From Nitrosospira briensis C-128 (GTDB lineage Bacteria > Pseudomonadota > Gammaproteobacteria > Burkholderiales > Nitrosomonadaceae), in contig NZ_CP012371.1 of NCBI RefSeq assembly GCF_000619905.2, positions 992,001 to 1,056,000 of the forward strand: a DNA stretch of 64,000 nt, given 5' to 3'. Positions 19,742-38,268 of this stretch are shown one piece after another; the first letter of the stretch is position 1; each line of letters begins with the position of its first letter. Under the pieces are notes generated by a model, which worked only from the letters and a program-made list of their open reading frames with translations, was not told where the DNA came from and searched no databases. Position numbers and translations under genes: made by a program.

Positions 19742-19933
19742 ACCTGAATCCGGTAGTTGACCGCTCATTTAATAGATCAGTGTTATGATTAATAACAATA
19801 TTTCATATTATTTGACGCTCACCTTCCGGGTGAGGGGGCTACGGGGTGAATTGCACGGTTTTTGCGGCACAGGGCTGCGTTGCAACTTCCTGGAATGGAA
19901 AACTTTTCCCCGATCCAACTACCGGATTCAGGC
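19742..19933 (+). mobile_element. MITE-like palindromic element, copy 1 (192 bp)
   Basis: Non-coding element with terminal inverted repeats: left ACCTGAATCCGGTAGTTG, right the reverse complement with one mismatch at the outermost base. It is flanked by TTA direct repeats at 19739-19741 and 19934-19936. An internal block (AATAACAATATTTCATATTA, then a CTCACC/GGTGAG-type hairpin) is shared with copies 2 and 3. It is about 46 bp shorter in the middle than copy 3. It lies 7 bp beyond the orn stop codon, between orn and glgP. Confidence 0.85.
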
Positions 19934-19943
19934 TTATTTAGCG

Positions 19944-20489
19944 CTATGCTCGGAGAAAGTGCTCGCGATAGTATCTCATCTCGGCAATGGAGTCGTAAAT
20001 ATCCGCCAGCGCCTCGTGCTTGCATTGCTTTGTCAAGCCTGCCGAGATTTCCGGTTTCCAACGCTTTACCAATTCCTTCAGGCTGCTTACGTCCAGATTA
20101 CGATAGTGAAAATAGGACTCAAGCTGCGGCATCCAGCGCGCCAGAAAACGCCGATCCTGGCATATCGAATTGCCGCACATGGGAGAGACTCCCATGGCAA
20201 CATATTCTTGCAGAAACGTGATCATGGACGCCTCTACCTCAGCTTCGTTCAGACTGGAAGATCTCACCTTGTCCACGAGGCCGGATTTTGCGTGCGTAGA
20301 CTTATTCCAGTTGTCCATGCCGTCGAGCACCGCTTCGGGCTGAGATAGAACCAGCACCGGTGCTTCCGCCACCAGGTTCAATTGAGAATCAGTTATCACG
20401 AGAGCCACCTCGAGGATATGATCATCCTGCGGACTAAGCCCGCTCATTTCCATATCTATCCAGATGAGGTTGTTGTTGTCTTGTGCCAT
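19944..20489 (-). CDS. orn: oligoribonuclease
   Basis: 3'-5' exonuclease that degrades 2-5 nt RNAs and linear dinucleotides such as pGpG. The 181-residue protein is full length for the DEDDh family: [20 protein letters not shown] carries the first Dx[14 protein letters not shown] the middle Asp, and [13 protein letters not shown] the final His and Asp. It is divergently transcribed from the M48 protease gene, with 98 bp between the two starts. A MITE-like repeat follows the stop codon immediately. Confidence 0.96.
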
Positions 20490-20587
20490 AATCAGATCAC
20501 TTTACTGAATTTTCAACGTGTAATTGTGTCATATCGATACTGACCCGTCACCTTTCATTGCGTTGCCGCTTCGCCCACCTATAGACC

Positions 20588-21844
20588 ATGCAAACGTTCA
20601 CGACCCTCTTTCTTGCCGCCCTGACGCTTACTTTTTTAGCGCGGATATGGCTGGCAACACGGCACATCCATCATGTTCTCGCCCATCGCGATCATGTGCC
20701 TGACGATTTTTCTTCGCGAATTACATTAGCGTCACATCAAAAAGCGGCTGACTACACCTGTGCCAAAACACGGTTGGGATATATCAGCATAACGCTCGAT
20801 ACGTTGCTTTTGCTGATACTTACCTTGGGCGGCGGGTTAAATGCCTTGGCGGATTTCTGGTCAAACTGGTTTAGCGACCCGTTGATACACGGCATAGCGC
20901 TCATTGTCAGCGCGGCGCTACTGATGAGCGTAGCAGGAATTCCGGTTGGTTATTACCGTACTTTTGTTATTGAACAAAAATTTGGTTTCAACAAGATGAG
21001 TCCTCGCATGTTTTTTCTCGACCTGATCAAACGCGCGCTACTGGGAGGACTGCTGGGCTTCCCGCTGCTACTCGGTATTTTATGGTTGATGCAGGAAATG
21101 GGGCCGAGCTGGTGGTTTTATGCCTGGCTTGCATGGATGAGTTTCAACGTGGTGCTTCTCGCCATCTTCCCGACCTGGATCGCGCCGCTTTTCAATAAGT
21201 TTACCCCGCTTGAGGATGCTCCGCTCAAGGCACGTATTGAACAATTGATGCGTCGGTGCGGCTTTAAATCCAGCGGTCTTTTCGTAATGGATGGTTCGCG
21301 CCGCAGCAACCACGGCAACGCTTATTTTACCGGCTTCGGCAGGACGAAGCGGATCGTTTTTTTCGATACGTTGCTTTCTCGTCTGGATACGCCCGAGATC
21401 GAGGCGGTGCTAGCGCATGAATTGGGACATTTCAAACGACGCCACGTTATCAAACGTATCGTATGGACGTTTGCCATGAGCCTTATATTTTTATGGACGC
21501 TGGGCTACTTGATGCAGCAGGACTGGTTTTACGCGGGATTAGGCGTTTCCGTTTCACACGTGTCTTCCTCGGCCATGGCGCTGCTGCTGTTTTTTTTAGT
21601 GATGCCCACGTTCACTTTTCTGTTTCAACCGGTGGCAAGTCTATATTCGCGCAAGCATGAGTTCGAGGCTGACGAGTATGCTGCAGGTAATGCCTCGGCC
21701 ACCGACCTCATACGCGCACTGATAAAACTCTACCAGGATAACGCCGCGACGTTGACCCCGGATCCCTTGCATTCGGCATTTTATGATTCCCATCCGCCCG
21801 CCGCAATGAGAATAGCGCGTCTGCAAAACCTGGCGCATAATTGA
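20588..21844 (+). CDS. M48 family (Ste24/CAAX-type) membrane metalloprotease
   Basis: Integral membrane zinc endopeptidase of 418 residues with several hydrophobic segments in the N-terminal half and two more after the active site. The zinc motif HELGHFKRRH is followed downstream by EFEADEYA, the third ligand of the Ste24 group. The DxHPP-like end (FYDSHPPAAMRIARL) is also typical. In bacteria such proteins act in membrane protein quality control; the CAAX prenyl role is eukaryotic. It is followed after about 210 bp by the pterin dehydratase gene on the same strand. Confidence 0.9.
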   Translation: MQTFTTLFLAALTLTFLARIWLATRHIHHVLAHRDHVPDDFSSRITLASHQKAADYTCAKTRLGYISITLDTLLLLILTLGGGLNALADFWSNWFSDPLIHGIALIVSAALLMSVAGIPVGYYRTFVIEQKFGFNKMSPRMFFLDLIKRALLGGLLGFPLLLGILWLMQEMGPSWWFYAWLAWMSFNVVLLAIFPTWIAPLFNKFTPLEDAPLKARIEQLMRRCGFKSSGLFVMDGSRRSNHGNAYFTGFGRTKRIVFFDTLLSRLDTPEIEAVLAHELGHFKRRHVIKRIVWTFAMSLIFLWTLGYLMQQDWFYAGLGVSVSHVSSSAMALLLFFLVMPTFTFLFQPVASLYSRKHEFEADEYAAGNASATDLIRALIKLYQDNAATLTPDPLHSAFYDSHPPAAMRIARLQNLAHN

Positions 21845-22056
21845 ACTTCTGGAGTATTAGGCTGGATGTTTCATAAATTGACGCGCGCCCTTGCTGGTCT
21901 TTTGTTTCGTATGAGAATTTCGTTCAGTCGGACGTATAAATAACTACGCCACTCTTTCACGAAATCTCCCTAAGAAACAAAATCCTGCGCAATCATCACG
22001 CGAATTTATTAAACATCCAGGCTAGCTATTTTTCAAACTGACCAGCGGGAGTAACA

Positions 22057-22398
22057 ATGAACGCCACTGCCAACGATCTCACCAGAAAGCAATGCAAACC
22101 CTGCGAGGGCAACATGCCTCCGCTTTCTCCCAATGAAATAACGCTGCTGATGCAGCAGCTCGAGGGGTGGGAGTTTTTCGATAAGATAATTAGAAAAAGC
22201 TATAATTTCAAGAACTACTATCAGACCATGGCTTTTGTTAATGCCATTGCCTGGATTTCCCATCGCGAAGATCATCACCCGGACATCATGGTTGGTTACA
22301 ATAGATGCAGGGTCGAGTATACCACCCATGCAATCAATGGGTTATCTGAGAATGACTTCATTTGCGCAGCGAAAATCGATACACTGTTCAACATTTGA
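22057..22398 (+). CDS. phhB: 4a-hydroxytetrahydrobiopterin dehydratase
   Basis: Pterin-4a-carbinolamine dehydratase of 113 residues, which recycles the oxidised pterin cofactor after hydroxylation reactions. The family core is seen in WISHREDHHPDIMVGYNRCRVEYTTHAINGLSEND (central HH and the Asp/Glu pocket), preceded by the WEFF strand. The ATG at 22057 follows GCGGGAGTAACA, a reasonable Shine-Dalgarno. It overlaps the start of rsgA, so the two are probably co-translated. No aromatic amino acid hydroxylase lies nearby, so its partner is unknown. Confidence 0.9.
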   Translation: MNATANDLTRKQCKPCEGNMPPLSPNEITLLMQQLEGWEFFDKIIRKSYNFKNYYQTMAFVNAIAWISHREDHHPDIMVGYNRCRVEYTTHAINGLSENDFICAAKIDTLFNI

Positions 22399-23282
22399 GA
22401 ACAATCCGGCAGGTTCCAATCGCGTCGCCGATTACCGGACAGATAGTCGCTGCATTCGGCAGATCTTTTCTCGTTAAAACCGCAAGCGGCGCAGCGCTGT
22501 CGTGTGTAATGCGTGGAAAAAAAGGCGGCGTGGCATGCGGCGATGTAGTGGAGATTCAGCCGACTGAATCGGGGCAAGGCGTCATTGAAAGCATAATGCC
22601 TCGTAGCGCCCTATTATATCGTAGCGATGCTTTCCGCGAAAAACTCATCGCCGCCAATATTACACAGGTTATTATCGTGGTGGCTGCGGTGCCAAGTTTT
22701 AGCGAAGAATTGATCAATCGCTGCATTGCCGCTGCTGAGAGCCAGTGCATAAAAGCACTGATCGTACTTAACAAGGCTGACCTGATCAAGCCCACAAACA
22801 CTGCTTCCAACATCCTTTCCCTCTATCGGGAACTTGGCTATTCGTCGCTGCAACTCAGCGCGAAGACAAATATCGAACCGCTATTACCCCATCTGCACGG
22901 TCATCTCAGCGTCCTGGTAGGTCAGTCCGGAATGGGCAAATCTACTCTTATCAATGCGCTCATCCCCGCGGCGGAGCGCGCCACTTCCGGTATTTCTGTT
23001 GCGCTCGATACCGGACGACATACTACTACCCATGCGCGACTCTACCACCTCGACGACAATAGCCGGATAATCGATTCTCCCGGCATGCAGGAATTCGGTC
23101 TTCACCATATTGACAGGGATGCGTTGGCGTGGGGGTTTGTTGAATTTCGCCAGTACATGGGGCTATGCAGGTTCAATAATTGCCGCCACGCGAATGAACC
23201 TGGCTGCGCGCTTGTGCAGGCTGTTCAGGAAGGCAAAATCAGCGCTCGACGCCTTGCTTTTTATCAAAAGCTGGCTAAATAA
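22395..23282 (+). CDS. rsgA: ribosome small subunit-dependent GTPase A
   Basis: Circularly permuted GTPase that assists late 30S assembly. The order is an OB-fold domain, then G4 (LNKADL), G5 (SAKT), G1 (GQSGMGKST), G2 (RHTTTHARL) and G3 (DSPGMQEFG), ending in a zinc knuckle with CRFNNCRHANEPGC. No ATG is available near the N-terminus. A TTG at 22395 overlaps the phhB stop as TTGA (295 aa), and a TTG at 22362 would give 306 aa; neither has a convincing Shine-Dalgarno. Function is certain, the start is not. Confidence 0.93.
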   Translation: MRTIRQVPIASPITGQIVAAFGRSFLVKTASGAALSCVMRGKKGGVACGDVVEIQPTESGQGVIESIMPRSALLYRSDAFREKLIAANITQVIIVVAAVPSFSEELINRCIAAAESQCIKALIVLNKADLIKPTNTASNILSLYRELGYSSLQLSAKTNIEPLLPHLHGHLSVLVGQSGMGKSTLINALIPAAERATSGISVALDTGRHTTTHARLYHLDDNSRIIDSPGMQEFGLHHIDRDALAWGFVEFRQYMGLCRFNNCRHANEPGCALVQAVQEGKISARRLAFYQKLAK

Positions 23283-23307
23283 CTCACCCTATAACTTCAT
23301 CCCATAT

Positions 23308-23340
23308 CGTGAGCAGGATGGGTCCCGTGAGCAGGATGGG
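23308..23340. repeat. 15-bp direct repeat after rsgA
   Basis: CGTGAGCAGGATGGG occurs twice (23308-23322 and 23326-23340) with a 3-bp spacer, 25 bp after the rsgA stop. No function is apparent. Confidence 0.7.
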
Positions 23341-23385
23341 CTTAACTGGTGCAACATCGATCTAAATGAAAAGAGCAGGTATTCT

Positions 23386-23422
23386 GGAAAAACAACGGGA
23401 GGTACTTTAACAAGTACCTCCC
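23386..23422 (-). terminator. intrinsic terminator for the GGCT-like gene
   Basis: Perfect 11-bp stem (GGGAGGTACTT pairing with AAGTACCTCCC) with a four-base loop at 23397-23422. Read on the minus strand it is followed by GTTGTTTTTCC, a U-rich tail. It lies 39 bp beyond the stop codon of the minus-strand gene at 23461. Confidence 0.75.
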
Positions 23423-23460
23423 GCAGAATTAATGTTCCCGAAACGGAAACCGCTTTCGTC

Positions 23461-24042
23461 TTAGACCTCGTTGACCGCCGCCCGACGCACATCCGTATCG
23501 ACCTCGAATCGCGCTAGAGGCAAATCACCGTACAGCAGCGCTTCTCTCTCGGCACAACGCTCTACGTTGGCATCGCCTTGCGCTTCAAATATCCGCAGCC
23601 ATTCGATGTACTCGCTCGGCAGGTCATGCTCGATGGCGCCCAGGATAACCATCGCTTTATGCCAGTGGTAAGGCCGGAGAACCGCCTCTTTGTAGCTCCC
23701 GGCAAAAGTCAATGCGGTGTGCGTGCCGGTTGACGTAACGACCGGTATATTCAGCTCGCTATAGCCTGTTCCAAGGCCTTCCGCCTGATTCAGACTTTCT
23801 CTATCCTTTACGTTGATCTTATAGAGCACGCCATAAACCCGGTTTCTCTGATTACCGGTTGCTTCGATATTGCTTTTCCCGGAACCGTCACGACTGACCT
23901 TTCCAAAGGTAAACCTGCGTCCTTCAATGAAGCCAATGTCTACTGCTACCGCTGATGGCGCGATATTCGAGGCGTTTATTCTGCGAGAGAACATGTTCGC
24001 GCCGTATGCGAAATAAAGAAATGTGTTAGTCGATGTTAGCAT
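23461..24042 (-). CDS. gamma-glutamylcyclotransferase-like (AIG2/GGCT fold) protein
   Basis: 193-residue cytoplasmic protein with the GGCT-fold signature YFAYGANM near the N-terminus, a central RVYGVLYKI strand and the EGLGTGYSE segment that should carry the catalytic Glu. The family releases 5-oxoproline from gamma-glutamyl amines or peptides; the actual substrate is unknown. It is a single gene ending in a clear terminator. Its 380-bp upstream region is AT-rich and contains repeated TTCACA motifs also found before the SulP gene. Confidence 0.78.
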   Translation of the reverse strand: MLTSTNTFLYFAYGANMFSRRINASNIAPSAVAVDIGFIEGRRFTFGKVSRDGSGKSNIEATGNQRNRVYGVLYKINVKDRESLNQAEGLGTGYSELNIPVVTSTGTHTALTFAGSYKEAVLRPYHWHKAMVILGAIEHDLPSEYIEWLRIFEAQGDANVERCAEREALLYGDLPLARFEVDTDVRRAAVNEV

Positions 24043-24426
24043 GATGGATGCCTATAAATAGGTTAGCTGGTTAAAAGTAAAACGCCCAAGTTCTGCATGT
24101 GTAACTTGTCACTCAATGACAATGTGTTACTGACTGTATGACAACCAGGGTAAGAATTACGCTTTCATGCCGATCTTTTACACCGAGATGAACACTGCTT
24201 TGTCCATCTTATAAAGAAGCTCGACCACTAAATCGCACTTCCCTGACATTTTTTCCCCTCTTGAACCGCTTGTTGACACATTTTTAAGCGGACTAAGGGT
24301 ATTTAACTACTTCACAAATACTTAACATGAAGTATACACATTCTTCACAAATTCACAACTATTTTATGTATTCACCACAGATTCTTCACATCATGGATAA
24401 AATTTTTTCTGCCTTTTGAGATGGTC
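24043..24426. other. AT-rich intergenic region with repeated TTCACA motifs
   Basis: No credible gene in 384 bp. The part from 24308 to 24395 holds several copies of a TTCACA core: ACTTCACAAAT at 24309, ATTCTTCACAAAT at 24340, ATTCACAAC at 24351 and ATTCTTCACATCATG at 24381. The last shares CTTCACATCATG exactly with 26628-26639 upstream of the SulP gene. It probably holds the promoter of the GGCT-like gene and the 3' end of the usp transcript. Confidence 0.5.
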
Positions 24427-24861
24427 CTAGTGGGGACGGACCAGCAAAATTGAAATTTCGACAGTTTTTACCAATTGCTCTGCCACAGAACCGGTGACCA
24501 AACGCTCCAGACCCCGACGGCCTTCCGTACCCACAACGACCAGATCTGCCCCCCATTCCGTGACGGCAGCAGCGATGGCCTCCATGATGGCAGTCCGGCC
24601 ATATCTTTCTTCCGCGTCCAGTAAACGGGTTTCCACTATTGGCGTCGCATCGGTAGTTGCCGTAGTCCTGGCACGTTCCAGCAGCGCCGCTCCAGCTTTT
24701 CGGTTATCAGCCCCGTCATCGTCGATCCCTTTCATCCCTTTCGTCACGGTATGGACGATGCACAGTACGGCTCCATCGGTAGCTGCGATATACTGGGCCT
24801 CTTCCAATGCGCTGCGGGAAATTTCATCGTCGGCGATAGCTACCATGATCTTCTTGTACAT
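24427..24861 (-). CDS. universal stress protein UspA family
   Basis: 144-residue single-domain USP. The nucleotide-binding motif G-x2-G-x9-G-S is present in VVGTEGRRGLERLVTGSVAEQL, and the N-terminal MVAIADDE segment carries the Asp expected at the ATP site, so it should bind ATP. It lies 80 bp downstream of the SulP carrier gene on the same strand, in a probable two-gene operon. This SulP lacks its own cytoplasmic STAS domain, so the USP could be a separate regulatory partner; that is inference from position only. Confidence 0.9.
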   Translation of the reverse strand: MYKKIMVAIADDEISRSALEEAQYIAATDGAVLCIVHTVTKGMKGIDDDGADNRKAGAALLERARTTATTDATPIVETRLLDAEERYGRTAIMEAIAAAVTEWGADLVVVGTEGRRGLERLVTGSVAEQLVKTVEISILLVRPH

Positions 24862-24941
24862 TAGAACTCCTCCTATAGTGATTCATGAAAAGAGGCGGGC
24901 ATCACGTGCCCGCCTCAATTAGGATAGTATCCCCAGGTCAG

Positions 24942-26288
24942 CTAGTCAGCGGTGCCGCCTGTCGAAAATTTCTCGAAATATTTTTTGATGATGACCTTGC
25001 TGGGTATCTTGCCGGCCTGATGAAAGACCAGGTAATTGATAAGCCCGTGAATCGCCAGCGCCACCAGCATGCCTTCGAAGATGCCTATCTTGAAGACCAG
25101 CAAGGCGGTAAGAACTGAAAGTATCAGTGCGTATTGCCCGTAATTGGCAACATGCCACAATCCCATGACCATTTTCCAGCCGGAGAAAATCATGATTGCG
25201 GCCAGCGAGAACTTCGGCAGATATTCAAGATAGTGCGAATTGAAGAAGAAGAAGAGAACGACCGAACCGACGACAACATTCGAAAACTTGGTATATGCCC
25301 CAGCCAGTCTGTTGGTGGTACTTTTAGCCAATCCGTCCAGGTTGGTCATGCCGCCAAAAAAACTCGCGCCCATATTGCTTATCCAGATAGACCACAAGCT
25401 GTTATTGGTGTTGCATTTGCGCCCCAGCGGATCTATTTTTTCGATCGCGGCGTTGCTCATTACCTGCTCTATCACATCGATCGTGGCGAGCATTGCCGCG
25501 AACCCCACGATGTACACCCACATCATTGCGCTCTCGATATGCGGTATCGGGAGGGCAAGCACAAACGGAACATCCTCCACGAATAGCATGGACATCGGCA
25601 TGTATTGAGCGAGCACGATACTTGCTATTATCAACAGGAAATAAGGAATTGCGGGTTTCGTATCCTTGAATTTGGAAAACAGGTATACAAACGCGGCGAA
25701 ACCGACTATCGATATCAGCACGATCTGGATTCGTGCCTCGTTCCAGAATACATCGGCCGTTTCCAGTTCTGCCGGTATCTCATAGCAAAATGTGGCAAAT
25801 TTGAGGCCTATCTTCAGGCCCACTCCCGCCAATAGCCCTTCTACGAGATAAACCGGTACCGCCTGCAAGATATACCGTTGCCAGTTGTATTTCCATACGA
25901 CCGCTTGCATGCTGGCTGTCAGGAAAATGACAAACGCCATATTCTCGATACCGAAGGTGTGAACGCCCATCGCCAGGGCAGGCGCGAGACCGGCTGCCAC
26001 CCCCGGCACGCCGATAAAATTGCCGGGCTTGAAAAATGCATTGACCCATCCGATGAAACAGGCAAAAACGACCGTCGCCAGCGCTACTTTGATAGGATAC
26101 TCCGACATCATGGCAATGCCGATCGATAGCGGGACCGCCATGGTTCCAGTTATAATTCCAGCCTGAATGTCGCGAGCGAGATACTTGGCCTGAAACCCCG
26201 CCGATCCTGGCGCGACCACTTCTTCCGCGGTGGCGCCGGGTGCATGATCATCGGTTGACAGCGGTTTATCTAAAGTAGATGAACTCAT
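24942..26288 (-). CDS. SulP family anion transporter lacking STAS, probable bicarbonate carrier
   Basis: Membrane carrier of the SLC26/SulP family, 448 residues, with about 11-12 hydrophobic segments. The N-terminal SulP signature region is visible in DIQAGIITGTMAVPLSIGIAM, with a conserved core around FFGGMTNLDGLAKSTTNR. The protein stops shortly after the last membrane segment, so the usual STAS domain is absent. Sulfate, bicarbonate and other anions are transported by this family. Bicarbonate is suggested by the nearby sbtA and PII-like genes and by the RuBisCO locus, not by a diagnostic residue. Start supported by AGGAAGGA upstream of the ATG. Confidence 0.82.
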   Translation of the reverse strand: MSSSTLDKPLSTDDHAPGATAEEVVAPGSAGFQAKYLARDIQAGIITGTMAVPLSIGIAMMSEYPIKVALATVVFACFIGWVNAFFKPGNFIGVPGVAAGLAPALAMGVHTFGIENMAFVIFLTASMQAVVWKYNWQRYILQAVPVYLVEGLLAGVGLKIGLKFATFCYEIPAELETADVFWNEARIQIVLISIVGFAAFVYLFSKFKDTKPAIPYFLLIIASIVLAQYMPMSMLFVEDVPFVLALPIPHIESAMMWVYIVGFAAMLATIDVIEQVMSNAAIEKIDPLGRKCNTNNSLWSIWISNMGASFFGGMTNLDGLAKSTTNRLAGAYTKFSNVVVGSVVLFFFFNSHYLEYLPKFSLAAIMIFSGWKMVMGLWHVANYGQYALILSVLTALLVFKIGIFEGMLVALAIHGLINYLVFHQAGKIPSKVIIKKYFEKFSTGGTAD

Positions 26289-26394
26289 GGTACCTATCCT
26301 TCCTTTTTAAAAAATTTAAACATAACTTCAAACGAAGAAGAAACCGAGAGGGTGACCTGCTTTCCGGTGGTTGTTCGACGTCTGCTCAATTTCG

Positions 26395-26517
26395 TCATAA
26401 GTTAAAAAACAGCTGATCTGGAAGTAACCTCAAGTCCTTGACTGGCTCGCCCACAATCAGATGCTGAAGCATTTGCTCAACCGGCTTTAGCAGCCGCTTT
26501 CGCAATGGATTCAACAT
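26395..26517 (-). CDS. possible 40-residue small protein upstream of SulP
   Basis: Short open frame in an otherwise non-coding region, ATG at 26517 to TGA at 26395. The product begins MLNPLRKRLLKPVEQMLQHL and continues as an amphipathic, Leu-rich peptide ending in DQLFFNL. A weak GGGA lies seven bases before the ATG. It lies 107 bp before the SulP start on the same strand. It is not recognised as any family and could be chance, but its composition is protein-like. Confidence 0.3.
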   Translation of the reverse strand: MLNPLRKRLLKPVEQMLQHLIVGEPVKDLRLLPDQLFFNL

Positions 26518-26572
26518 TCGAATCCCTACAAATTCATTAAGGCATTAAAAGCAACGCTAACATAGCATTAGC

Positions 26573-26639
26573 GATGTGAAGAATATGTATGTTAAATGTC
26601 AAGAAATTGTGAAGTCTGCAATATTTACTTCACATCATG
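26573..26639 (-). promoter_or_regulatory. TTCACA/TGTGAA motif cluster upstream of the SulP operon
   Basis: Contains GATGTGAAGAAT (26573-26584), the exact reverse complement of a site at 24381-24392; ATTGTGAAGT near 26606; and ACTTCACATCATG (26627-26639), which shares 12 bases with 24384-24395. Repetition in both orientations before two transcription units suggests regulator binding. No regulator can be named. Confidence 0.4.
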
Positions 26640-26825
26640 CCAAAACGGGTATGTTCAAGTGTGCGCCATTTTGCACTTAATTTACGTATAAACAATTGCT
26701 TAGATAATTTAAACCTATGAATACGATGAGCAACAGATCGGTGTATTAGTGACATATGTCAATTTTATGTAGGTAAGCTGGAACGCCCGTTTGGATAGTT
26801 AAATCGTGTGCTTAAGTCAATTGAT

Positions 26826-27053
26826 TCAGGAGGTGTGCGTCAATCGAGCAAAAATTGAGATAGCAATCAGACCGAAAGCCGGCCATGCTTCTATCCATGC
26901 CTGGCACGGCGATTTGCGCCGCTGACAGTGCTGCGGAACAGCTTGAACATCATCTGGATTCTGGAAAAGCTGGCGATAGTCACGCGGACCGTATTTCCCA
27001 TTCACGATGATTTGGGGCGTGACGCATTTAACCTGAATGAGACAGCTGACCAC
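26826..27053 (-). pseudogene. relic ORF, possible thioredoxin-fold (DsbA-like) fragment
   Basis: Open frame of 75 codons whose first codons lie inside the short repeat element at 27031-27120. After that it reads VKCVTPQIIVNGKYGPRDYR, which resembles the cis-Pro loop and following strand of DsbA-like oxidoreductases. The upstream half with a CxxC motif is absent, replaced by the repeat. The C-terminal 30 residues look unlike the family. It is best treated as a possible decayed fragment. Confidence 0.22.
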
Positions 27054-27120
27054 CCATTTTTCAACTAAGCGCCATGGCCGAAAGGGATTTCTCTATCCCG
27101 CCCAACTGGCTGATTCAGGT
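27031..27120. mobile_element. short (90 bp) relative of the TNA-flanked MITE family
   Basis: Left end ACCTGAATGAGACAGCTGAC, right end (reverse complement) ACCTGAATCAGCCAGTTGGG, flanked by TTA at 27028-27030 and 27121-27123. The outer eight bases match the 192-388-bp elements; the interior is different and contains a GGGATTTCTCTATCCC-type hairpin. Same TNA target pattern, so probably mobilised by the same kind of transposase. Confidence 0.65.
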
Positions 27121-27388
27121 TTAGGGGAGGGCTTGCTCAGTGGCGGATACTGCCTGTTCTTTGCTGTTCCTTGTTGAGCCGAACCGCATTTCCCCTGTTA
27201 GCTCAAAGGCGCGCGGAGACAAGGTCAGGCATAGCATGAATCTGGATAGATGCTGGTAGACGAGAGACGCCGGTAATACCGAAGGACTACCCATCGAGGC
27301 GGAGCAGCGTCTCCGAAGGGATGGCATTACCCAGGAGGAGTCGGCACCCGGAACGCGGCCGTGGCATTTCGCTAGCACGATCCGGACT

Positions 27389-27928
27389 TCACGCTTCCGG
27401 ATTATTTTTCTTCTGAGCCGTTCTTTGCGATGGGTGCGTGGCCGTTGCATCCGTTTTTGCGTGGTGCGCCAGCTTTGACCATCCGTGGCGGCGAAGCAAC
27501 TGATATACCGTCGATGTCGACACCGATCTGCCTACGCGCCTTTCAAGCTCGGCTTTCAGCTGGTGTATCGGCAGAATGCCCGTGGCCTGGGCATGGGCAA
27601 TGAATGGAGCCAGAAACTGTACTTCTTCATCGAGGCTCATCCGTGCATGATTGCGAAGGCCCTTTTTTGTTTTGACCTGTTCAGCGCCGGTCTCGATACG
27701 CTGAAACCGCGTCCGCAGTTTTCCTGTTCTACTTTTAGATAAACCGATGATGACGGCTGTCTGTTCCAATGACAGCCCAAATTCCAGCGGAAGGAGTAAT
27801 GCCTGAGCAGCACGCAACGCCTCGACTGTTTTGGCTGAGGCGATTTTTTCCTTCGCCGCTTCCACAAATTCCCGTCCTGTCGCAGGTCTCGCCATTTGTA
27901 TTCTCAGCTCGGGTTTATACCGAATCAT
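27389..27928 (-). CDS. winged-helix protein resembling IS630 orfA
   Basis: 179-residue protein with a helix-turn-helix segment (LEQTAVIIGLSKSRTGKLRTRF) and a second winged-helix region (STSTVYQLLRRHGWSKLAHH) followed by a basic tail ending QKKNNPEA. This is the layout of the DNA-binding half of IS630-family transposases, where a DDE domain should follow. Here the frame stops and no DDE motif can be read in the next 270 bp. The ATG at 27928 overlaps the upstream stop as ATGA, so it is translationally coupled to the small gene before it. It may be a transposase relic or a domesticated DNA-binding protein. Confidence 0.65.
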   Translation of the reverse strand: MIRYKPELRIQMARPATGREFVEAAKEKIASAKTVEALRAAQALLLPLEFGLSLEQTAVIIGLSKSRTGKLRTRFQRIETGAEQVKTKKGLRNHARMSLDEEVQFLAPFIAHAQATGILPIHQLKAELERRVGRSVSTSTVYQLLRRHGWSKLAHHAKTDATATHPSQRTAQKKNNPEA

Positions 27929-28131: not shown

Positions 28132-28165
28132 AAATCCGCTCCTCACGTTAGGAGGATGGAACGGA

Positions 28166-29862: not shown

Positions 29863-29936
29863 GGTAAACCCTCCTTATGTAGTTATTAACTTACCTACGA
29901 TTACGATCACCCGGCCTTCAGGACCAGCCGGGATGA

Positions 29937-30155: not shown

Positions 30156-30224
30156 CCCTCCGAAGGTGAATGAAGGTTTCTGGAACGGTGACGGAACCGG
30201 TAACGATTCCTTGGTGGATTCGCA

Positions 30225-30270
30225 TTGGTTTATCCTTGTTTGTAAAATTGGTTTATCCTTACTTGTAAAT
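30225..30270. repeat. tandem 23-bp direct repeat upstream of sbtA
   Basis: Two adjacent copies with 20 of 23 bases equal: both start TTGGTTTATCCTT and end TTGTAAA plus one base (30225-30247 and 30248-30270). A period near two helical turns suits a response regulator or other activator binding as a dimer. They lie about 360 bp before the sbtA start. Confidence 0.6.
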
Positions 30271-30512
30271 CGAAAATGTATAGAATGTCGAAAGCTGCAA
30301 CGGTAACAATAGTTTTTTTAATATCAGTGAAATCATGGAACAACTCGCTGTTTTATGGCTACGAAACAAACGTTATAGTTGTGCTGCCATGAAACACAGA
30401 TTGCCACAACCCATGTGAAGAACCTGTCGCGGGGTTGTGATTAATTTGTGAAAGGCAAAAAAAGAACGATCACGAAGCGTGATGTTTGTGGAAACCGCAA
30501 ATGCAGAGGGGA

Positions 30513-31808
30513 TTACGGAAAGGTGATGTGGAAAGTTGCGCCTTTTCCCGGCGTGCTGTCGACCTCTATAATCCAGCCATAGTGGTCGCAGATACGCTTG
30601 ACAATCGCAAGGCCGATTCCCAGGCCTTCGCCTTTCGTCGACCCGCGGAAGAAGCGCTCATAAAGGAGGGGCAGATAAGAAGGTTCGATACCGATGCCGG
30701 AATCGGAGATTGAAAGACGCTTCCGGCTGAAATTCACGCGAATGAAACCACGCTCTGTATATTGCACCGCATTGCGAAGCAGATTCACAAGAGCCGTGTG
30801 CAATGCTTGCCGGTTTAGCGTGAGAACGGCATTCGGCTCTACTGCAACCTCGAACATGAGGCGTTTTCGATATATTTCAGTGCATACAGGCTCTACTGCA
30901 TCGTAAACACACTCGGCGATTGCGACCGGCTCCATGATGCCCAGCGCCTGTTCGCGAGCAAGGAATAACAATGCCTGCAATTGTTCTCCCATGCGAGTCG
31001 CCGCGACCTCGATCATTCCGATGCGCGCCCGTGCCCTCTCGGAGAAGCCCGGTTCCGTAACGAGCAGTTCGCAACTCGTCAGGATGGTGGTGATCGGGGT
31101 ACGCAACTCGTGACTTATGTTCGCGGTGAACTCCTGCTCGCGCCGCAGCATGCGCGTGATACGGTTCTGATAGTCGTCCAGTGCACGGGCGAGTTGCGCC
31201 ACTTCCTCGTCCTGGCCGGGCTGGATCATTGTTGCGTCCTGCCCCGCACCGGGCGCCAGATGCCTTACTCGCTCCGCAAGATCGGTAACTTGCCTGACGA
31301 GTACTCCCGCAAGCAGATATCCCACCAGTAACGCAACTCCGACCACCGAAAGGAGCGATAAAATGATAAGAAGCCTGAGTTCCTGTTGCCGCTGATCATG
31401 GAGCCCGATTTCATAGGCAACAAGAAACTTGACGCCATCGACATGGCGTACCGCGACCCGAATCTCCTCCGGGCCCCTGAAAACCTTGTGGCGCCTATAG
31501 TTGAGCCCTTGCAAGTACGGTGGGAGCCTGGATTCCTCGGCGGGGTCATGGATGATGTACTTTTCGAGATTTGAGCCTACCTGGGGGACGAAATCGCTAC
31601 TCTGGCGATAGCGCTCGAGCAGATAGTCCATCTCGGTTTCCATGATCTGCTCGATATGCGCCTCTTCGATATCGTCAGAAGCAATATACAGGCTGATACC
31701 GAGCGTTCCGACGACGACTATGCAGAATACCGCAAAGGCCAGCGCAACTCGTCGGCGTAGGCCACGTTTAATCCCTGGCACGGGAAATGAGGCGGTACCC
31801 AAGTCCAT
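30513..31808 (-). CDS. sensor histidine kinase
   Basis: Membrane-bound two-component kinase of 431 residues. Order: TM1 (about 20-42), a periplasmic sensor of about 100 residues, TM2 (about 145-168), HAMP, HisKA with H233 in NISHELRTPITTIL, and HATPase_c with an N box (NLLRNAVQYTERG), G1 box (DSGIGI) and G2 box (GEGLGIGLAI). It overlaps the end of the response regulator gene by 41 bp, so the two are co-translated. The input signal is unknown; the short sensor domain has no recognised fold. The neighbouring bicarbonate genes are possible targets, by position only. Confidence 0.92.
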   Translation of the reverse strand: MDLGTASFPVPGIKRGLRRRVALAFAVFCIVVVGTLGISLYIASDDIEEAHIEQIMETEMDYLLERYRQSSDFVPQVGSNLEKYIIHDPAEESRLPPYLQGLNYRRHKVFRGPEEIRVAVRHVDGVKFLVAYEIGLHDQRQQELRLLIILSLLSVVGVALLVGYLLAGVLVRQVTDLAERVRHLAPGAGQDATMIQPGQDEEVAQLARALDDYQNRITRMLRREQEFTANISHELRTPITTILTSCELLVTEPGFSERARARIGMIEVAATRMGEQLQALLFLAREQALGIMEPVAIAECVYDAVEPVCTEIYRKRLMFEVAVEPNAVLTLNRQALHTALVNLLRNAVQYTERGFIRVNFSRKRLSISDSGIGIEPSYLPLLYERFFRGSTKGEGLGIGLAIVKRICDHYGWIIEVDSTPGKGATFHITFP

Positions 31809-32451
31809 GAATTGTCTCGATCGGATCGTAGCCGCCCGCGCGGCTCAAGGAACGGCGTAGTTCATGCATGTGGCTGCGCAATGTATCGCTGGTTCCCTGC
31901 GTGTCGCCCCAGACTTCCGATTCAAGTTCCCTGCGGCTGAACACGCGGCCAGGCTCGCTCATCATGAGTGCGAGCAGCCGGATACATTTGGGGGGCAGCT
32001 TGACGGGTGTGCCGGCAAAAAGCACCGATAGCGATTTGGGATCGAATGACAGATCCCCGGTTTCCAGCATGCGGCTGGTCACTTTGCCACCATGCCGTTT
32101 ATGCATCGCAACGAGGCGGGCTTCGACTTCTTTCAGCGCGAACGGCTTGATCATGTAATCGTCGGCGCCGTGATCAAATCCTTTGAGTTTATCTTCCAGC
32201 GTATCCCGCGCTGTCAGCATCAGCACGGGTGTGTCAAGGTCAGCTTCCTGCCGAAGTTTCCGACATAATGTAATGCCGTCCATGGCAGGGAGACCAAGAT
32301 CAAGCAGAATCCCATCAAATTTCTGCGTTACCGCGAGATGCAGGCCGGTGATACCGTCAGCGGCGGCATCGACACTGTGACCGCGGGCCTCGAGAAAATC
32401 GTAGAGGTTTGTGGCGATAGCCGGATCATCTTCAATAATAAGTATATGCAC
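31768..32451 (-). CDS. OmpR/PhoB family response regulator
   Basis: 227-residue DNA-binding regulator. The receiver domain has the acidic pocket EDD (7-9), phosphoacceptor D51 (LLDLGLPAMDG), T80 in MLTARD and K102 in IKPFA. The C-terminal winged-helix domain ends ETIHGLGYRLISRARD, typical of the OmpR group. It is the first gene of a two-gene unit with the histidine kinase. Target operators are not proven; the repeated motifs near sbtA and SulP are candidates. Confidence 0.93.
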   Translation of the reverse strand: MHILIIEDDPAIATNLYDFLEARGHSVDAAADGITGLHLAVTQKFDGILLDLGLPAMDGITLCRKLRQEADLDTPVLMLTARDTLEDKLKGFDHGADDYMIKPFALKEVEARLVAMHKRHGGKVTSRMLETGDLSFDPKSLSVLFAGTPVKLPPKCIRLLALMMSEPGRVFSRRELESEVWGDTQGTSDTLRSHMHELRRSLSRAGGYDPIETIHGLGYRLISRARD

Positions 32452-32675
32452 GGGAAGGCTTACTAAAAAATTATAAGATAAAGCGGCTTATCGGTTTTAA
32501 CAACACCTGGAGAATATGCCCGATTTGAAAAATGTAGCTGATTCCGGTAGAAATAAATCAACGTCGATCCAGGTCGCTACTCGCGTTTGGTCGACCTGAG
32601 GCTTCGTTGAGAATCTAGCACAGTTCGATATGTTTTGTTGGTATTTAGTGCCTTTTTTATTTATAAAATTGGGTG

Positions 32676-33737
32676 CTAGCGATATTTTCGGCTGAGGGCA
32701 TGAACTGCTTCCACCAGTGTCAGGGCATTCTCCGGTGGAGTAAACTGCGAAATGCCATGACCAAGATTGAAAACGTGACCGTTGCCTTTTCCGTAACCGG
32801 AAAGAATTTTTTCCACTTCAGCAGCAATCACTTCCGGTGTCGAGAATAGCACCGCGGGGTCGAGATTTCCTTGCAAGGCAACCTTGTGCCCAACCCGTCG
32901 GCGCGCCTCGGCGATATCCATGGTCCAGTCGAGCCCAACCGCATCACAACCGCTATCCGCAATGCTCTCCAGCCATAGCCCGCCGCCCTTCGTAAAAACG
33001 ATGTTAGGCACGCGCTCGCCGCCATGCTCCCGCTTTAGTCCCGCTAGTATCTGACTGATATAACGCAAGGAAAATTCCCGATAGGCTGCGTGGGACAAGG
33101 CGCCGCCCCAGGTATCGAAAATCATCACAGCCTGGGCACCGGATTCGATTTGTGCATTCAGATAAGCGATTGCCGCCTGCGCGGTAATATCGAGAATGTG
33201 ATGCAACAGATCCGGCCGCTGGTACAACATGGTTTTGATCTGACGGAAATCGGTACCGCCGCAGCCCTCCACCATATAACAGGCAAGCGTGAAAGGGCTG
33301 CCGGAAAAGCCGATCAGCGGAACTCGGTTGTCCAGCGTCCTTCGGATTTGTGAAACCGCATCCATCACGTAACGCAGGTGTACTCCGGGATCAGGTACCG
33401 TCAGTGCACGAATCTCCCATTCTTCACGTAACGGCCGCTCGAACTTGGGCCCCTCGCCATCCGAGAAATAGAGTCCCAACCCCATTGCATCGGGGATGGT
33501 TAGAATGTCCGAAAACAATATCGCGGCATCCAGCGGGAACCGCGCCAGGGGCTGCATTGTAACTTCAGTCGCGAAATCGGGGTTTTTGCACAGAGCGAGA
33601 AAGTTGCCGGCACGAGCGCGCGTCTGGTTGTACTCGGGTAAATATCGCCCAGCCTGACGCATCATCCACACCGGGGTGTATTCAGTAGGTTGCCGCAGGA
33701 GAGCCCGCAGCAGGGTATCGTTCTTCAATCTTGTCAT
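32676..33737 (-). CDS. hemE: uroporphyrinogen decarboxylase
   Basis: Converts uroporphyrinogen III to coproporphyrinogen III in haem synthesis. The 353-residue length is standard. The N-terminal signature [16 protein letters not shown] carries the active-site Arg residues, [15 protein letters not shown] the catalytic Asp, and [17 protein letters not shown] is the second family signature. The C-terminal NLGHGI segment is also conserved. It is transcribed alone, with over 200 bp on each side. hemJ, another haem gene, lies about 3 kb away on the same strand. Confidence 0.97.
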
Positions 33738-33996
33738 CGACTCCAGTTTAATCGTACAAACTCAGCAAGACACAGCATCGTTTATGCGCCAGTTGCCGGG
33801 TAACAGCTTGTATCCCGGATCATACGCCGTTAGAACTTATCTTCCTGTAGACAGGTTGTTCATGAGCTTAACCTGCTAATGTTATCAGCTATTGGCTTCC
33901 GGGTACATGCTCACGGCCAGTGGCGATTGTTGCGGCGCTTTTATCCTTGCCGGCGCCGGCCTGTACAGTGATCACAAATATGAATAAGGGTATTGA
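33738..33996. other. intergenic region upstream of hemE
   Basis: About 260 bp between the hemE start and MITE copy 2. No credible gene was seen; it should contain the hemE promoter. The final TGA (33994-33996) is the left target duplication of the element. Confidence 0.4.
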
Positions 33997-34384
33997 ACCT
34001 AAATCCGGTAGTTGACCGCTCCTTTCATAGATCAGTATCATGATTAATAACAATATTTCATATTATTTGACGCTCACCTTCCGGGGGAGGTCGCTACGGG
34101 GTGAATTGCACAGTTTTTGCGGTACATGGCTGCGTTGCAACTCCTTGGAATGGAACGGCGCCCCGAAGCTTCGCCCGAGGGACCCCGCGAAGCGGGGATC
34201 GGGCAGCGCAGGGGATGCCGCGATCGCGCTCCACACGCAAGGGGGCGCCCGCATCCCGCTTCGGAGTCGCACCTTCCTGCGGAAGGCACTGCTCCGCCCT
34301 GCGCGGTCGTATTCCGCGTCATTGCGCCTTGCCCTGCACCCCAAAAACCGTACACTTCTCCCCGTCCAACTACCGGATTTAGGT
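33997..34384 (+). mobile_element. MITE-like palindromic element, copy 2 (388 bp, with GC-rich insert)
   Basis: Terminal inverted repeat ACCTAAATCCGGTAGTTG at both ends (perfect), flanked by TGA at 33994-33996 and 34385-34387. The outer parts match copy 3 closely. Between GGAATGGAACG and ATTCCGCGTC it carries about 150 extra bases, roughly 34153-34310, that are GC-rich and self-complementary (for example CCCCGC-GAA-GCGGGG). It lies 33 bp beyond the dgt stop. Confidence 0.85.
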
Positions 34385-34420
34385 TGAAGGTTCAGCAGCA
34401 GCAAAGGCATAGCAGAAGCG

Positions 34421-35542
34421 TCAGCTCTCCTCGATGGCAAATAATCGCCGATATTCCCGAATTGCATAGCGATCCGTCATGCCGGCAACATAATCGGCAA
34501 CTGCCTGATGTTTATCGTGATGATACTTTGACTGAAATACTGGAGGAAGCAACCGGATATCCGAGCAAAACGCCTTGAAAAGTGCTTCGATCGTGTGTCG
34601 CGCCTTGGCACTCATGCGCGCCACTTTGTAGTGCCGGTACAGATAGTCCCGCAGAAATTTTTTCAGTTCCTGCTGCTCCTGCCAGATTTCCTCGCTGAAA
34701 CCAACGAGGTACGGGGCCGCCCGCACAGCTTCAAGACTATCCGGGCAGTTATGCGCGATATTGGCGGCACTTTGTCTGGTCAGATCCCCCACCAGCGTAT
34801 TGATCATGCGCCGGACGGTTTCATGGATCAAACGCCGCCCGGAGATCTCAGGGTAATGACTTTTTGCCATCGACAAATGCCGCGCGAATATTTTGACCTC
34901 CACAAGCTGCTCCAGCGTAATCAGGCCGGAGCGCAAGCCATCGTCTACGTCGTGGTTGTTGTAGGCAATTTCATCGGCGAGGTTGGCCAATTGTGCCTCC
35001 AGCGACGGTCGCTGATCCGAAAGGAAGCGCTCGCCCACATCTCCAAGTTTAACGGCATTCTTTCTGGCGCAGTGCTTGAGGATGCCTTCACGCGTTTCAA
35101 AGCACAAATTCAAACCGTCAAATGCGCCATAACGTTCTTCCAGCACATCTACCACACGCAGAGACTGCAAATTGTGCTCGAAGCCGCCGTAATCTTTCAT
35201 GCAGTCGTTCAGCGCTTCCTGCCCGGCATGACCAAATGGCGTATGACCGAGGTCATGCGCCAAGGCAATGGCTTCAACCAGATCTTCGTTGAGATGCAGA
35301 TTGCGCGCGACCGAGCGGCCGATTTGCGCTACCTCCAGGCTATGCGTCAAGCGCGTGCGAAACAGGTCGCCTTCGTGATTTACAAAAACCTGAGTTTTGT
35401 ATACAAGCCTGCGAAATGCGGTGGAATGAATGATGCGATCGCGATCACGCTGGAAGGCGGTACGTCCCGGTGCTGATTCTTCCGCGATGCGGCGGCCGCG
35501 CGAACTGGCCGGGGTTACTGCATAAGGCGCCAGCTCATGCAT
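34421..35542 (-). CDS. dgt: deoxyguanosinetriphosphate triphosphohydrolase-like protein
   Basis: HD-domain dNTPase of 373 residues that hydrolyses dNTPs to nucleoside and triphosphate. Metal ligands are H67 ([10 protein letters not shown]) and H96-D97 ([11 protein letters not shown]). The N-terminal [20 protein letters not shown] segment is typical of the type 2 subgroup. It starts inside the end of aroB (8-bp overlap), so the two are one operon, an arrangement common in beta-proteobacteria. A MITE copy follows its stop. Confidence 0.92.
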
Positions 35543-36635
35543 CGGCAGTACATTCCATAAGCGTTTCAGCCAATATCTCTGCCGGCACGTCGGAATGGAG
35601 CACGGCCTCGCCTATATGCCGGAGTAAAATGAAACGCATATTCCCTCCCTCTACCTTCTTGTCCAGCCCCATCAGGGTCAGGTATTTTTCCGGTCCGAGA
35701 TTGGGCGCCACGGCAGAAAGCCCTGCTTGCGCATAAATTTTCCGGATTCGCTCTACCTCGGCCTCACCGATCATCCCCATGCGCTTAGACAGTTCCGCAG
35801 CCAGCATCGTACCGGCTGCAACTGCTTCGCCATGCAACCAGACACCGTAACCCATCGCATTTTCAATTGCGTGACCAAAGGTATGTCCGAGATTGAGTAA
35901 TGCCCGAACACCGCTTTCGCGTTCATCTGCTTGCACAACTTCCGCCTTGTTCACGCAGCTTCGGCGTATTGCTTCGACCAGCACATCAGCATCGCGGGTA
36001 AGGAGCTTGTCCATATTCTGTTCCAACCACTCCAGGAAGCCGAGATCCCGGATAAGGCCATACTTGATGACCTCGGCAATGCCTGCCCGCAGTTCCCTTT
36101 CCGGCAACGTATCGAGCGTTGCTGTGTCCGCCAGGACGACCCGAGGTTGATAAAAAGCACCGATCATGTTTTTGCCAAGCGGATGATTGATACCTGTCTT
36201 GCCGCCGACCGAAGAATCCACCTGTGCCAGAAGCGTCGTTGGAATTTGAATAAACGGCACGCCCCGCAAATAGGTTGCGGCAGCAAACCCGGCCAAATCA
36301 CCCACGACTCCGCCGCCAAGGGCGATGATGGGCGTGCTCCGTTCACAGCGGTGACGAAGAAGCGCATCGAATATGAAGTTCAGCGTCTGCCAATTCTTGT
36401 GCGCTTCCCCATCAGGGAGAATGATGGGAACAGTCGCCACGCCCTGGTCTTCCAGCGCACTACGCAGCCTTTCCATATAAAGTGGCGCTACCGTAGTGTT
36501 TGTGACGATTGCGGCGCGCTTTCGCGGCAAGAGGTCGAGGATAATTTCGGAATGGCTCAGAATGCCATTGCCGATATGGATCGGGTAACTACGCTCACTT
36601 GGCGTAGAGGCAAAATCTACCGTGATTGTTTGCAT
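35535..36635 (-). CDS. aroB: 3-dehydroquinate synthase
   Basis: Second enzyme of the shikimate pathway, converting DAHP to 3-dehydroquinate with NAD+ and a divalent metal. The 366-residue protein shows the NAD-binding [19 protein letters not shown], the substrate region [19 protein letters not shown] and [15 protein letters not shown], the metal ligands in [10 protein letters not shown], and two His-containing segments [11 protein letters not shown] and [10 protein letters not shown]. It is the first gene of an aroB-dgt pair. No aroK (shikimate kinase) is adjacent. Confidence 0.97.
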
Positions 36636-36733
36636 GGTTTAGTGGTTCGCGACGTACGATCTCAATTCTTGTCTACCTGATGATCAACAGGTTTTTGTTC
36701 GGAGGAACTCATGATGAGATAGCAAGCGATCTC

Positions 36734-37147
36734 TCAAAACGGCTTTACCACAACCAGGATTACCACCGCAATCAGGATCACCACTGGAAATTCATTGAAC
36801 CACCGGTAATAAACATGGCTGCGCCGATTGCGATCATGCTTGAAATCTGCAAGCAGTTTTCCACAGTAGAGGTGATACACGATCAGCACGATCACTAGCG
36901 CAAGTTTTGCATGCAACCAACCACCAGAAATTCCATAACCCAGCCAGAGCCAAAGACCAAAGAGAACTGTCAGCACGGCGCCGGGCGTCATGATCCCATA
37001 ATAAAGTTTGCGCTCCATCACCTTGAAGCGTTCGACACCCGGCATATCATCGCTCATCGCGTGATAGACAAACAGGCGCGGCAAGTAAAACAATCCCGCA
37101 AACCAGGTCACCATGAAAATGATGTGTAGCGATTTTATCCAGAGCAT
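36734..37147 (-). CDS. hemJ: protoporphyrinogen IX oxidase, HemJ type
   Basis: 137-residue integral membrane protein with four hydrophobic segments. It matches the HemJ (formerly UPF0093) family: MLWIKSLHIIFMVTWFAGLFYLPRLFVYH with the conserved His, MERKLYYGIMTPGAVLT, and YHLYCGKLLADF with a second conserved His. HemJ oxidises protoporphyrinogen IX in bacteria without HemG or HemY. It stands alone about 100 bp downstream of the aroB start. Confidence 0.9.
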   Translation of the reverse strand: MLWIKSLHIIFMVTWFAGLFYLPRLFVYHAMSDDMPGVERFKVMERKLYYGIMTPGAVLTVLFGLWLWLGYGISGGWLHAKLALVIVLIVYHLYCGKLLADFKHDRNRRSHVYYRWFNEFPVVILIAVVILVVVKPF

Positions 37148-37454
37148 CTGTGATTCTTTTTAACCTGCACCAGGCATCTATATGAGGTCGGGGGTGATTA
37201 TGGCGCGGAGAGCGAGCACGGGCATCTGCCACGAGAACCGGGTGACCCACCCTGCAAGACCACAAAAACAGCGAAAAACCCAGCAGCCGATTATTTCATC
37301 GGGTGGCTGTAAGCCAGCACCTTGCAGAAATCGAGCATACTATAGCTGATCACCCCGGGATGGGAAAAGGAATATCATCGAGAACGCATCTTGGCGCAGC
37401 AGGAAGCCGGGGGGGAAATCTACATGCTATAAAAAAGCATATGGAACCCGGTTG
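37148..37454. other. intergenic, no feature recognised
   Basis: 307 bp between the hemJ start and the nfu stop. No credible ORF or RNA was seen. It should contain the hemJ promoter and the end of the suf transcript; no strong terminator was found. Confidence 0.4.
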
Positions 37455-38015
37455 TTATAGTGCGACGACCTCGATATCGGGCTCTATTGATCTCAGCATA
37501 TTCTGAATACCTCGCAGCGTGCCTGAGATCGAGCTCGGGCATGTGCCGCAAGCACCTTGATAATGAACGCTGAGCTTGTTGCCATCGAGCCCGAGCACAT
37601 GCAGGTCGCCGCCGTCACTTTGGAGATAAGGACGAACCTCCTCGTCGAGCATGATATTGATGGTATCGAGCCGCTGCTGGTCCTCCGGACTTAAACCGGC
37701 AATTGCACTGGTTGCCGCGGCGACTGTTGCGGCTGATTGCGCATCGGCTGCAGGCGCGGCGCGGATCGGATCGGCCACCTCGCGCGCAAGGTCTTGCCAG
37801 TCGGCGCCGCCATCTTGCGTTATCGTGATCCAGCGATCGACATAAAAGACGTTAGTCACATGATCGATGTCGAACAATGCCGTGGCAAGTGGATCGTCTT
37901 TCGCCTGCTCGGCATTGTCATATGAGCATGTCACCCCCCAGGTCAATGGCTCCTTCAGGATGAACTTCAGCGCATTTCGATTCGGGGTACCTTCTATTTC
38001 CGCTATTTTTGGCAT
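37455..38015 (-). CDS. nfu: NifU-like Fe-S scaffold (Nfu) protein
   Basis: 186-residue carrier that receives and passes on Fe-S clusters. The N-terminal half is an Nfu_N-type domain (TPNRNALKFILKEPL), then an Ala-rich linker near residues 85-108, then the NifU-like domain with the cluster-binding CxxC in GACGTCPSS. It is the last gene of the suf cluster but is separated from sufU by a 238-bp MITE, whose edge lies 15 bp before the ATG. A Shine-Dalgarno (AAAGGAACAGGAA) survives in between. Confidence 0.9.
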   Translation of the reverse strand: MPKIAEIEGTPNRNALKFILKEPLTWGVTCSYDNAEQAKDDPLATALFDIDHVTNVFYVDRWITITQDGGADWQDLAREVADPIRAAPAADAQSAATVAAATSAIAGLSPEDQQRLDTINIMLDEEVRPYLQSDGGDLHVLGLDGNKLSVHYQGACGTCPSSISGTLRGIQNMLRSIEPDIEVVAL

Positions 38016-38030
38016 TTCCTGTTCCTTTCA

Positions 38031-38268
38031 ACCTAAATCCGGTAGTTGGACGGGGTGAAGTGTACGGTTTTTTGGGTGCAGGGCAAGGCGCAACGACGCG
38101 GAATGGTCGTTCCATTCCAAGGAATTGCAACGCAGCCATGTGCCCCAAAAATTGTGCAATTCATCTCGTAGCGCCCTCACCCGGAAGGTGAGCGTCAAAT
38201 AATATGAAATATTGTTGTTAATCATAACACTGGTCTATTAAATGAGCGGTCAACTACCGGATTTAGGT
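38031..38268 (-). mobile_element. MITE-like palindromic element, copy 3 (238 bp) between sufU and nfu
   Basis: Inverted relative to copies 1 and 2. The terminal repeats are perfect (ACCTAAATCCGGTAGTTG), flanked by TCA at 38028-38030 and 38269-38271. Internal hairpins include CTCACC-CGGAA-GGTGAG and GGAATGG-TCGTT-CCATTCC. The right target copy is the reverse complement of the sufU stop codon TGA, so the insertion leaves SufU intact. Confidence 0.88.

Follow-up and report, generated by a model that had tools for sequence, protein, structure and literature searches.

Miniature inverted-repeat transposable elements (MITEs) are usually regarded as short-lived, lineage-specific debris. The stretch of Nitrosospira briensis C-128 DNA considered here (NZ_CP012371.1, positions 992,001 to 1,056,000; 64,000 nucleotides, hereafter the window) carries several copies of a family of such elements, the central form of which is a core of 236 bp. 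In being short, present in many copies, mostly intergenic, bounded by inverted ends and target duplications, and free of a transposase, the family resembles the Correia, ERIC, Chunjie, and QMITE elements, as far as these are described in the available part of a review of bacterial MITEs (PMC10969869), a text in which, to the same extent, the name IS1380 does not occur. Among insertion sequences (ISs), IS1247 of the IS1380 family is 1672 bp in length, with repeats of 16/13 bp and a 5 bp duplication, as listed in PMC3281130. It is to this family that the comparisons lead: the N. briensis elements are probably non-autonomous MITEs moved in trans by an IS1380-like transposase, with the 236 bp core as an old lineage, a reading that rests on sequence comparison. 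No description of this element family was recognised in the open-licence literature searched.

The family is abundant in the host. An earlier note, made from the window alone, had proposed a search of the whole genome with the 18 bp end, and in the 3.21 Mb genome this finds 154 matches at no more than 2 mismatches (80 forward, 74 reverse), while the end read backwards, used as a control, finds 0 forward and 0 reverse. At least 66 elements were paired by script from the sites around the listed end matches, a procedure that under-samples copies with weaker ends, and 10 single ends were left over; removal of four nested or spurious pairs from the 66 (298364, 99523, 816994, and 817158) leaves 62 for analysis. 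The ends are 17 bp inverted repeats, CCTRAATCCGGYAGTTG in this host. Lengths range from 73 to 388 bp, short as is expected of MITEs, with clusters at 235–237 bp and 384–388 bp and the others from 73 to 377 bp. The 386 bp form is the 236 bp form with about 150 GC-rich bases at the tip of the hairpin, and copies differ on average from their class consensus by 4.6% (19 copies of 230–240 bp) and 4.2% (23 copies of 365–392 bp).

There is no conserved reading frame, each of the six frames having stops in at least 36 of 41 core elements. Of the 62 rejoined junctions in the host, 13 are spanned by an open frame of at least 150 codons, whereas 1679 of 2000 random points in the window are, so that the host insertions lie mostly between genes; the same test in other genomes gives 18 of 28 copies crossed by a long frame, against 2545 of 2800. 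The copies follow no clear orientation rule relative to the neighbouring open frames, there being 16 divergent, 7 convergent, and 9 and 18 co-directional cases among the 50 classed (12 of the 62 were left out). A scan around one 236 bp copy found neither promoter nor terminator. The end matches at 663273 and 664975, which are 1.7 kb apart, are not an IS but surround cytochrome-like genes.

The target duplication of these elements is 5 bp, mostly WTNAW (W being A or T), not 3 bp. When the element is taken to start at CCT, identical 5-mers are present on both sides of 38 of the 62 host copies, so the duplication of the flanks seen in the window extends to further copies. The two flanks agree in 56 copies at position 1, in 50 at position 3, and in 50 at position 5, whereas shuffling gives means of 30.8, 17.5, and 29.4, and none of 2000 shuffles equals the observed matching at any of these positions; positions 2 and 4 match in 59 and 62 copies and are nearly fixed, hence uninformative. 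Within one length class, copies read ACCT where the target is TTNAA and TCCT where it is ATNAT, which indicates that the base previously counted as terminal is derived from the target. With the terminal A given to the target, the elements of the window are 386, 236, 190, and 88 bp long. The 3 bp repeats TTA, TTA, TGA, and TCA that had been reported are indeed present, but they are merely the middle of the 5 bp repeat. TNA flanks need not imply IS5 or IS1031, as here TNA is the core of a 5 bp site.

The search for partners took the ends through 399 genomes of the order. There are 12 forward and 10 reverse matches in Betaproteobacteria bacterium UKL13-2 (CP012157.1), which, where fetched, belong to copies of a 1639 bp element with the ends CCTAAATCCGGCAGTTA and CCTATTTCCGGCAGTTG, encoding a transposase of 513 amino acids. 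The best family hit of this transposase is NCBIfam IS1380 (NF033539), at 151.7 bits and under the cut-off of 180, and it is because this hit is the best yet falls below the cut-off that the group is called IS1380-like here. The Pfam PF13701 cut-off (34.7 bits) is passed by L232, with 83.8 bits, and by five others of the group, with 47.9–86.5 bits. A scan of named genomes identified 460 stretches that encode relatives of the transposase, from which 79 loci were kept, mostly betaproteobacterial and 14 of them from UKL13-2. Pairs of CCT-ended repeats are present at 63 of the 79, while the remaining 16, several of them at contig ends, have no such pair. Exact 5 bp repeats flank 46 of the 63, a count that leans high because the pair score rewarded matching repeats; the ISs with exact repeats are 1.62–1.74 kb long, all 46 repeats are NTNAN, and 31 are WTNAW.

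The ends themselves vary, and several variants are shared exactly between ISs and small elements. The variant CCTAAATCCGGCAGTTG is identical in one IS end (L383, L381) and in the host copy at 892607, CCTAGATCCGGCAGTTG in one IS end (L364, L367) and a small element (L239), CCTAAAAACCTCAGTTG in one IS end (L400) and a small element (L450), and CCTAAAAACCGCAGTTG in one IS end (L358) and a small element (L481). On a Polaromonas plasmid, some 360 bp separate a 234 bp core from an IS of the group; one end of the core shares 16 of its 17 bases with the IS end, but the flanks of the core, TTCAT and TTAAT, are not an exact repeat. The annotated hypothetical protein at 3463–3642 of CP087967.1 (L279), which falls almost entirely within the 234 bp core, is probably not a gene.

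In many families of a single bacterial order the 236 bp core recurs at a similar length and folds into the same hairpin, which is unusual for such DNA. It is found in the sister genus and in two further families, with 78% identity to the host consensus in G243 and 56% in G051. A covariance model made from 20 elements and searched against the 399 genomes at E≤0.001 matches 110 of the 399, in 54 of 158 genera, and at E≤1e-20 it matches 51 genomes of 17 families; five candidates were scored per genome under strict filters, the E-values are rough, and the training genomes match by construction. Length is 230–239 bp in 128 of the 145 matches measured out of 150 listed, and 215–294 bp in the rest; the five omitted come late in the list and three of them are partial. 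The best match in each of 30 loci, among them the host's own copy and the training copy of G243, is 231–237 bp long, with exact 5 bp repeats in 18 and NTNAN on both sides in 24. In 40 further stretches, three of which had been seen previously, the length is 231–238 bp in 37 and 215, 242, and 274 bp in the others, with exact repeats in 23 and NTNAN on both sides in 34.

When plasmids are searched with the cores of L412 and L439, only the Polaromonas plasmid and a plasmid of Caballeronia grimmiae are found, the latter matching at 68.1% over the full length. On this conjugative plasmid (NZ_CP084278.1, L441) the 234 bp relative, at 3001–3234, stands between two annotated genes. Searches of plasmids with a 388-base element-bearing stretch of the window, of viral contigs with a 25-base pattern, and of phages with the L412 core gave no hit. 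Rfam has no match at gathering score in the window, L239, L242, or L279, and none at E≤0.1 in nine other loci.

Taken together, these features would fit the following mechanism. The longer copies are predicted to form imperfect hairpins closed by the 17 bp inverted repeats. An IS1380-like DDE transposase supplied in trans, to judge from the ends and the duplications, would bind the ends and carry the element into a WTNAW site, of which 5 bp are duplicated, and the likely source of the enzyme would be the 1.6–1.7 kb insertion sequences found elsewhere in the Betaproteobacteria. The host genome has no match to the IS1380-like transposase, which extends to the whole genome, for this group, the earlier observation that no transposase is present in the window, and for this reason the host copies look like the residue of past activity; of the 23 genomes of the genus, 3 have matches, all of them distant or broken. 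That the elements are non-autonomous and MITE-like, as was first proposed, is supported by the multi-copy inverted ends, the duplications, one empty site, and the absence of a conserved frame. The 236 bp core would be old, a similar length and the same hairpin having been kept in other genera and families, and its terminal repeats take variants also found on the ISs, which would suggest that the two have co-evolved.

Other sources for the transposase have to be considered. The earlier note had looked to the IS1031 group of the IS5 family, with 3 bp TNA duplications, and the central three flank bases are identical in 48 of the 62 host copies. Such an origin is now very improbable, given a duplication of 5 bp, a terminal base that changes with the target, and the IS1380-like transposase encoded by the elements that do share these ends. 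The check proposed at the time, a search for an IS5-family element with the same ends, was made at 60 loci of the genus with DDE_Tnp_1 (PF01609) or DDE_Tnp_1_3 (PF13612) (32 + 28, part of the listed matches, with the ends of 14 re-inspected), none of which has a pair of these ends, and two IS5-like copies in the host have other ends. Those at L041 and L043 (G000 131622 and 1773115) are an IS5-like pair, 99% over 828 bp, with two frames and CCTGTTAAC-type ends, and are unrelated. A 1.49 kb IS in G016, of the same genus (L140/L262), was also rejected as a partner; it is a member of the IS1380 family, but its ends, CCCAGATTTTCCATT, differ, and it has a TTAAT duplication. A stronger alternative, though an unlikely one, is that the elements were moved by another transposase with the ends of the IS1380-like group and a need for palindromic targets. 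The outer bases of the duplication are complementary in 37 of the 38 exact host duplications against 10 of the 46 in ISs (Fisher p = 2.6e-13), which indicates that the sampled ISs choose their targets differently. The same outer-pair palindromy is seen in other sets of small elements (17 of 18 and 23 of 23 in model-found sets, 7 of 10 among smaller mixed relatives), loci being partly common to the sets and the counts not fully independent. This preference across lineages, absent from the ISs, speaks for a different enzyme, as does the lack of a transposase match in the host together with the failure of core and transposase to occur together: of the 13 genomes of the host family covered by both searches, 4 have the core and 2 have transposase matches, and none has both. 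These observations weigh against an IS1380-like source, and several more do so. All six group transposases, one of them partial, score below the NF033539 cut-off (105.7–155.5 against 180). UKL13-2, with its many IS copies, has a single weak core match (E 6.4e-4), and a pattern search of 12 IS-bearing genomes found one short degenerate relative, in UKL13-2, although the pattern was narrow and the blanks in the other 11 genomes say little. In G147, of the sister genus, matches to the ends occur along with a relative of the transposase, but the single IS end found there is different, and the 236 and 386 bp consensus sequences do not resemble the IS bodies of the loci compared (E≤1e-3). Against a separate transposase stand the parallel end variants of ISs and small elements, with four exact 17 bp matches, and the 5 bp duplication with T at position 2 and A at position 4 that both share. 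The palindromic targets have two possible explanations: a preference for symmetric sites that comes from the symmetry of the ends, or the action of another transposase.

The conservation of the hairpin likewise allows more than one explanation. Among the 20 training elements, two-sided changes are seen at 25 of the 64 pairs, where shuffling gives 7.0 and sliding 6–11, the structure having been derived from the same alignment on which the pairs were counted. With the same structure, 26 elements aligned without the model, of which two (the copies of the window and of G243) are training elements and the other 24 were model-found, have such changes at 40 pairs, compared with 18.7 after shuffling and 13–17 after sliding; the shuffles ignore relatedness, and neither comparison is a probability. 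In this set 96.1% of cells are paired, pairwise identity is 0.52–0.89, and the least conserved region is the unpaired AT-rich arm (0.63, against 0.78–0.88 elsewhere). Of the two strands, the same one gives the more stable fold in 19 of 20, 26 of 26, and 39 of 40 elements, in sets that have a few members in common. On strand-neutral pairs, G-U exceeds A-C by 49:6 in 26 model-gathered elements and by 91:17 in 34 (six of the 40 being left out), an excess that collection bias may affect; in 20 elements gathered without the model the two are nearly equal, at 34:27. The wobble-pair counts and the stability of one strand are a hint of a functional RNA or single strand, and are put forward as a hypothesis only. 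In its full form the hypothesis makes the core a mobile element of the whole order that acts as a structured RNA or functional single strand, with length and fold under selection, parasitic on IS1380-like transposases and with a symmetric target rule of its own; this is possible but doubtful. Slightly less doubtful, and still a tentative proposal, is that DNA events, such as cruciform or template-switch correction between the arms, have kept the hairpin in place of selection for a folded strand. Long DNA palindromes can correct one arm from the other, and the near-equal counts in the model-free set are in keeping with this. Such correction would, however, make the middle base of the duplication complementary, and this base remains identical in 50 of 62 copies, for which reason hairpin-templated correction was also set aside as the cause of the palindromic duplications; the excess of G-U in the model-gathered sets and the greater stability of one strand argue in the same direction.

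Within the window, the 18 bp end occurs 8 times at up to 3 mismatches, far above the 0.02 expected and reached in 0 of 100 shuffles, and the three inverted-repeat elements and the 90 bp relative first described there are all where they were reported. The 236 bp core element is at 38032–38267 on the forward strand, between exact TTCAA duplications (38027–38031 and 38268–38272), and scores 252 bits with the covariance model R1, in the building set of which it is included. The 386 bp element, at 33998–34383 on the reverse strand, is the core enlarged by some 150 bp of GC-rich sequence at the tip of its hairpin, and has an exact TTGAA duplication at 33993–33997 and 34384–34388. The 190 bp element, at 19743–19932 on the reverse strand, is a shortened variant of the core, and its flanks, TTTAA (19738–19742) and CTTAT (19933–19937), match in the middle three bases only. 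The 88 bp relative, at 27032–27119 on the reverse strand, has mainly its outer ends in common with the family, matches the covariance model weakly (22.1 bits), and lies between TTTAA and TTTAG, which agree in the first four bases. A degenerate fifth copy of 70 bp, at about 44829–44898 on the forward strand, has the left end CCTGAATCCGGCAGTTG and a decayed right end, scores 25.8 bits, and has flanks without a matching duplication. Also present, at 21858–22025, is an unrelated miniature element of about 168 bp with 22 bp inverted ends starting TAGGCTGGATGTTT; it is missing from the corresponding position in G009, the nearest relative in the window comparison (91% identity over the longest match), where similar copies are found elsewhere.

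The orthologous sites in G009 differ from one another. At the 33998 site the element is absent and a single diverged copy of the target is present, so that an empty target in a related genome, the second check that had been proposed, was found, this being the sole window site shown to be empty among those compared. At the 38032 site the TTCAA duplication is retained around a copy that has lost part of its interior, and a related element is present at the place corresponding to 27032. The 19743 site has a 236 bp copy in the opposite orientation with TTTAA on both sides, which would suggest either inversion in place or replacement.

Copy number differs greatly among species within the one genus. 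Counted as end matches at no more than 1 mismatch on both strands of each genome, there are none in 6 of the 23 genomes of the genus, 1–2 in 5, and at least 13 in 12, with a maximum of 122. Beyond the genus, end matches are found in 6 of 9 genomes of the sister genus, 2 of 85 of a third genus, and 0 of 8 of a fourth, and one-mismatch hits in the distant genomes L031 and L032 look like chance. In G011 (917800–923000, L196) element ends adjoin the starts of two neighbouring open frames, which are presumably rsmB- and fmt-like, and could alter the leaders of these frames.

The proposed IS1380-like origin of the transposase can be set against known systems. The partner ISs are like the IS1380 family (IS1247; ISEcp1) in their length of 1.62–1.74 kb, their 5 bp duplications, and their best hit to NCBIfam IS1380, and unlike it in scoring below the NCBIfam cut-off and in having proteins of 510–545 amino acids (five of six, the sixth being partial); the IS1380 member of G016 (L262) has, by comparison, 448 amino acids and 277.7 bits. 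That length, fold, and target rule are retained across many families, while the ends follow variants of a group of transposases, suggests a parasite that is long-lived and constrained internally. The family offers a concrete case in which to study the persistence of some MITEs, the role of their interiors, and the target choice of IS1380-like enzymes. Set beside the Correia, ERIC, Chunjie, and QMITE elements, as described in the part of the review available (PMC10969869), the family is distinguished by a 236 bp core that is found in many families with similar length and a compensating hairpin. The Tn3-derived inverted-repeat miniature elements (TIMEs), in so far as the accessible part of their description covers them (PMC4133298), are similar in being short, at 262 bp, with conserved stretches of core, similar predicted folds, and a supposed mobilisation in trans, but they differ in their Tn3-type 38 bp ends and in being usually present as a single copy per host.

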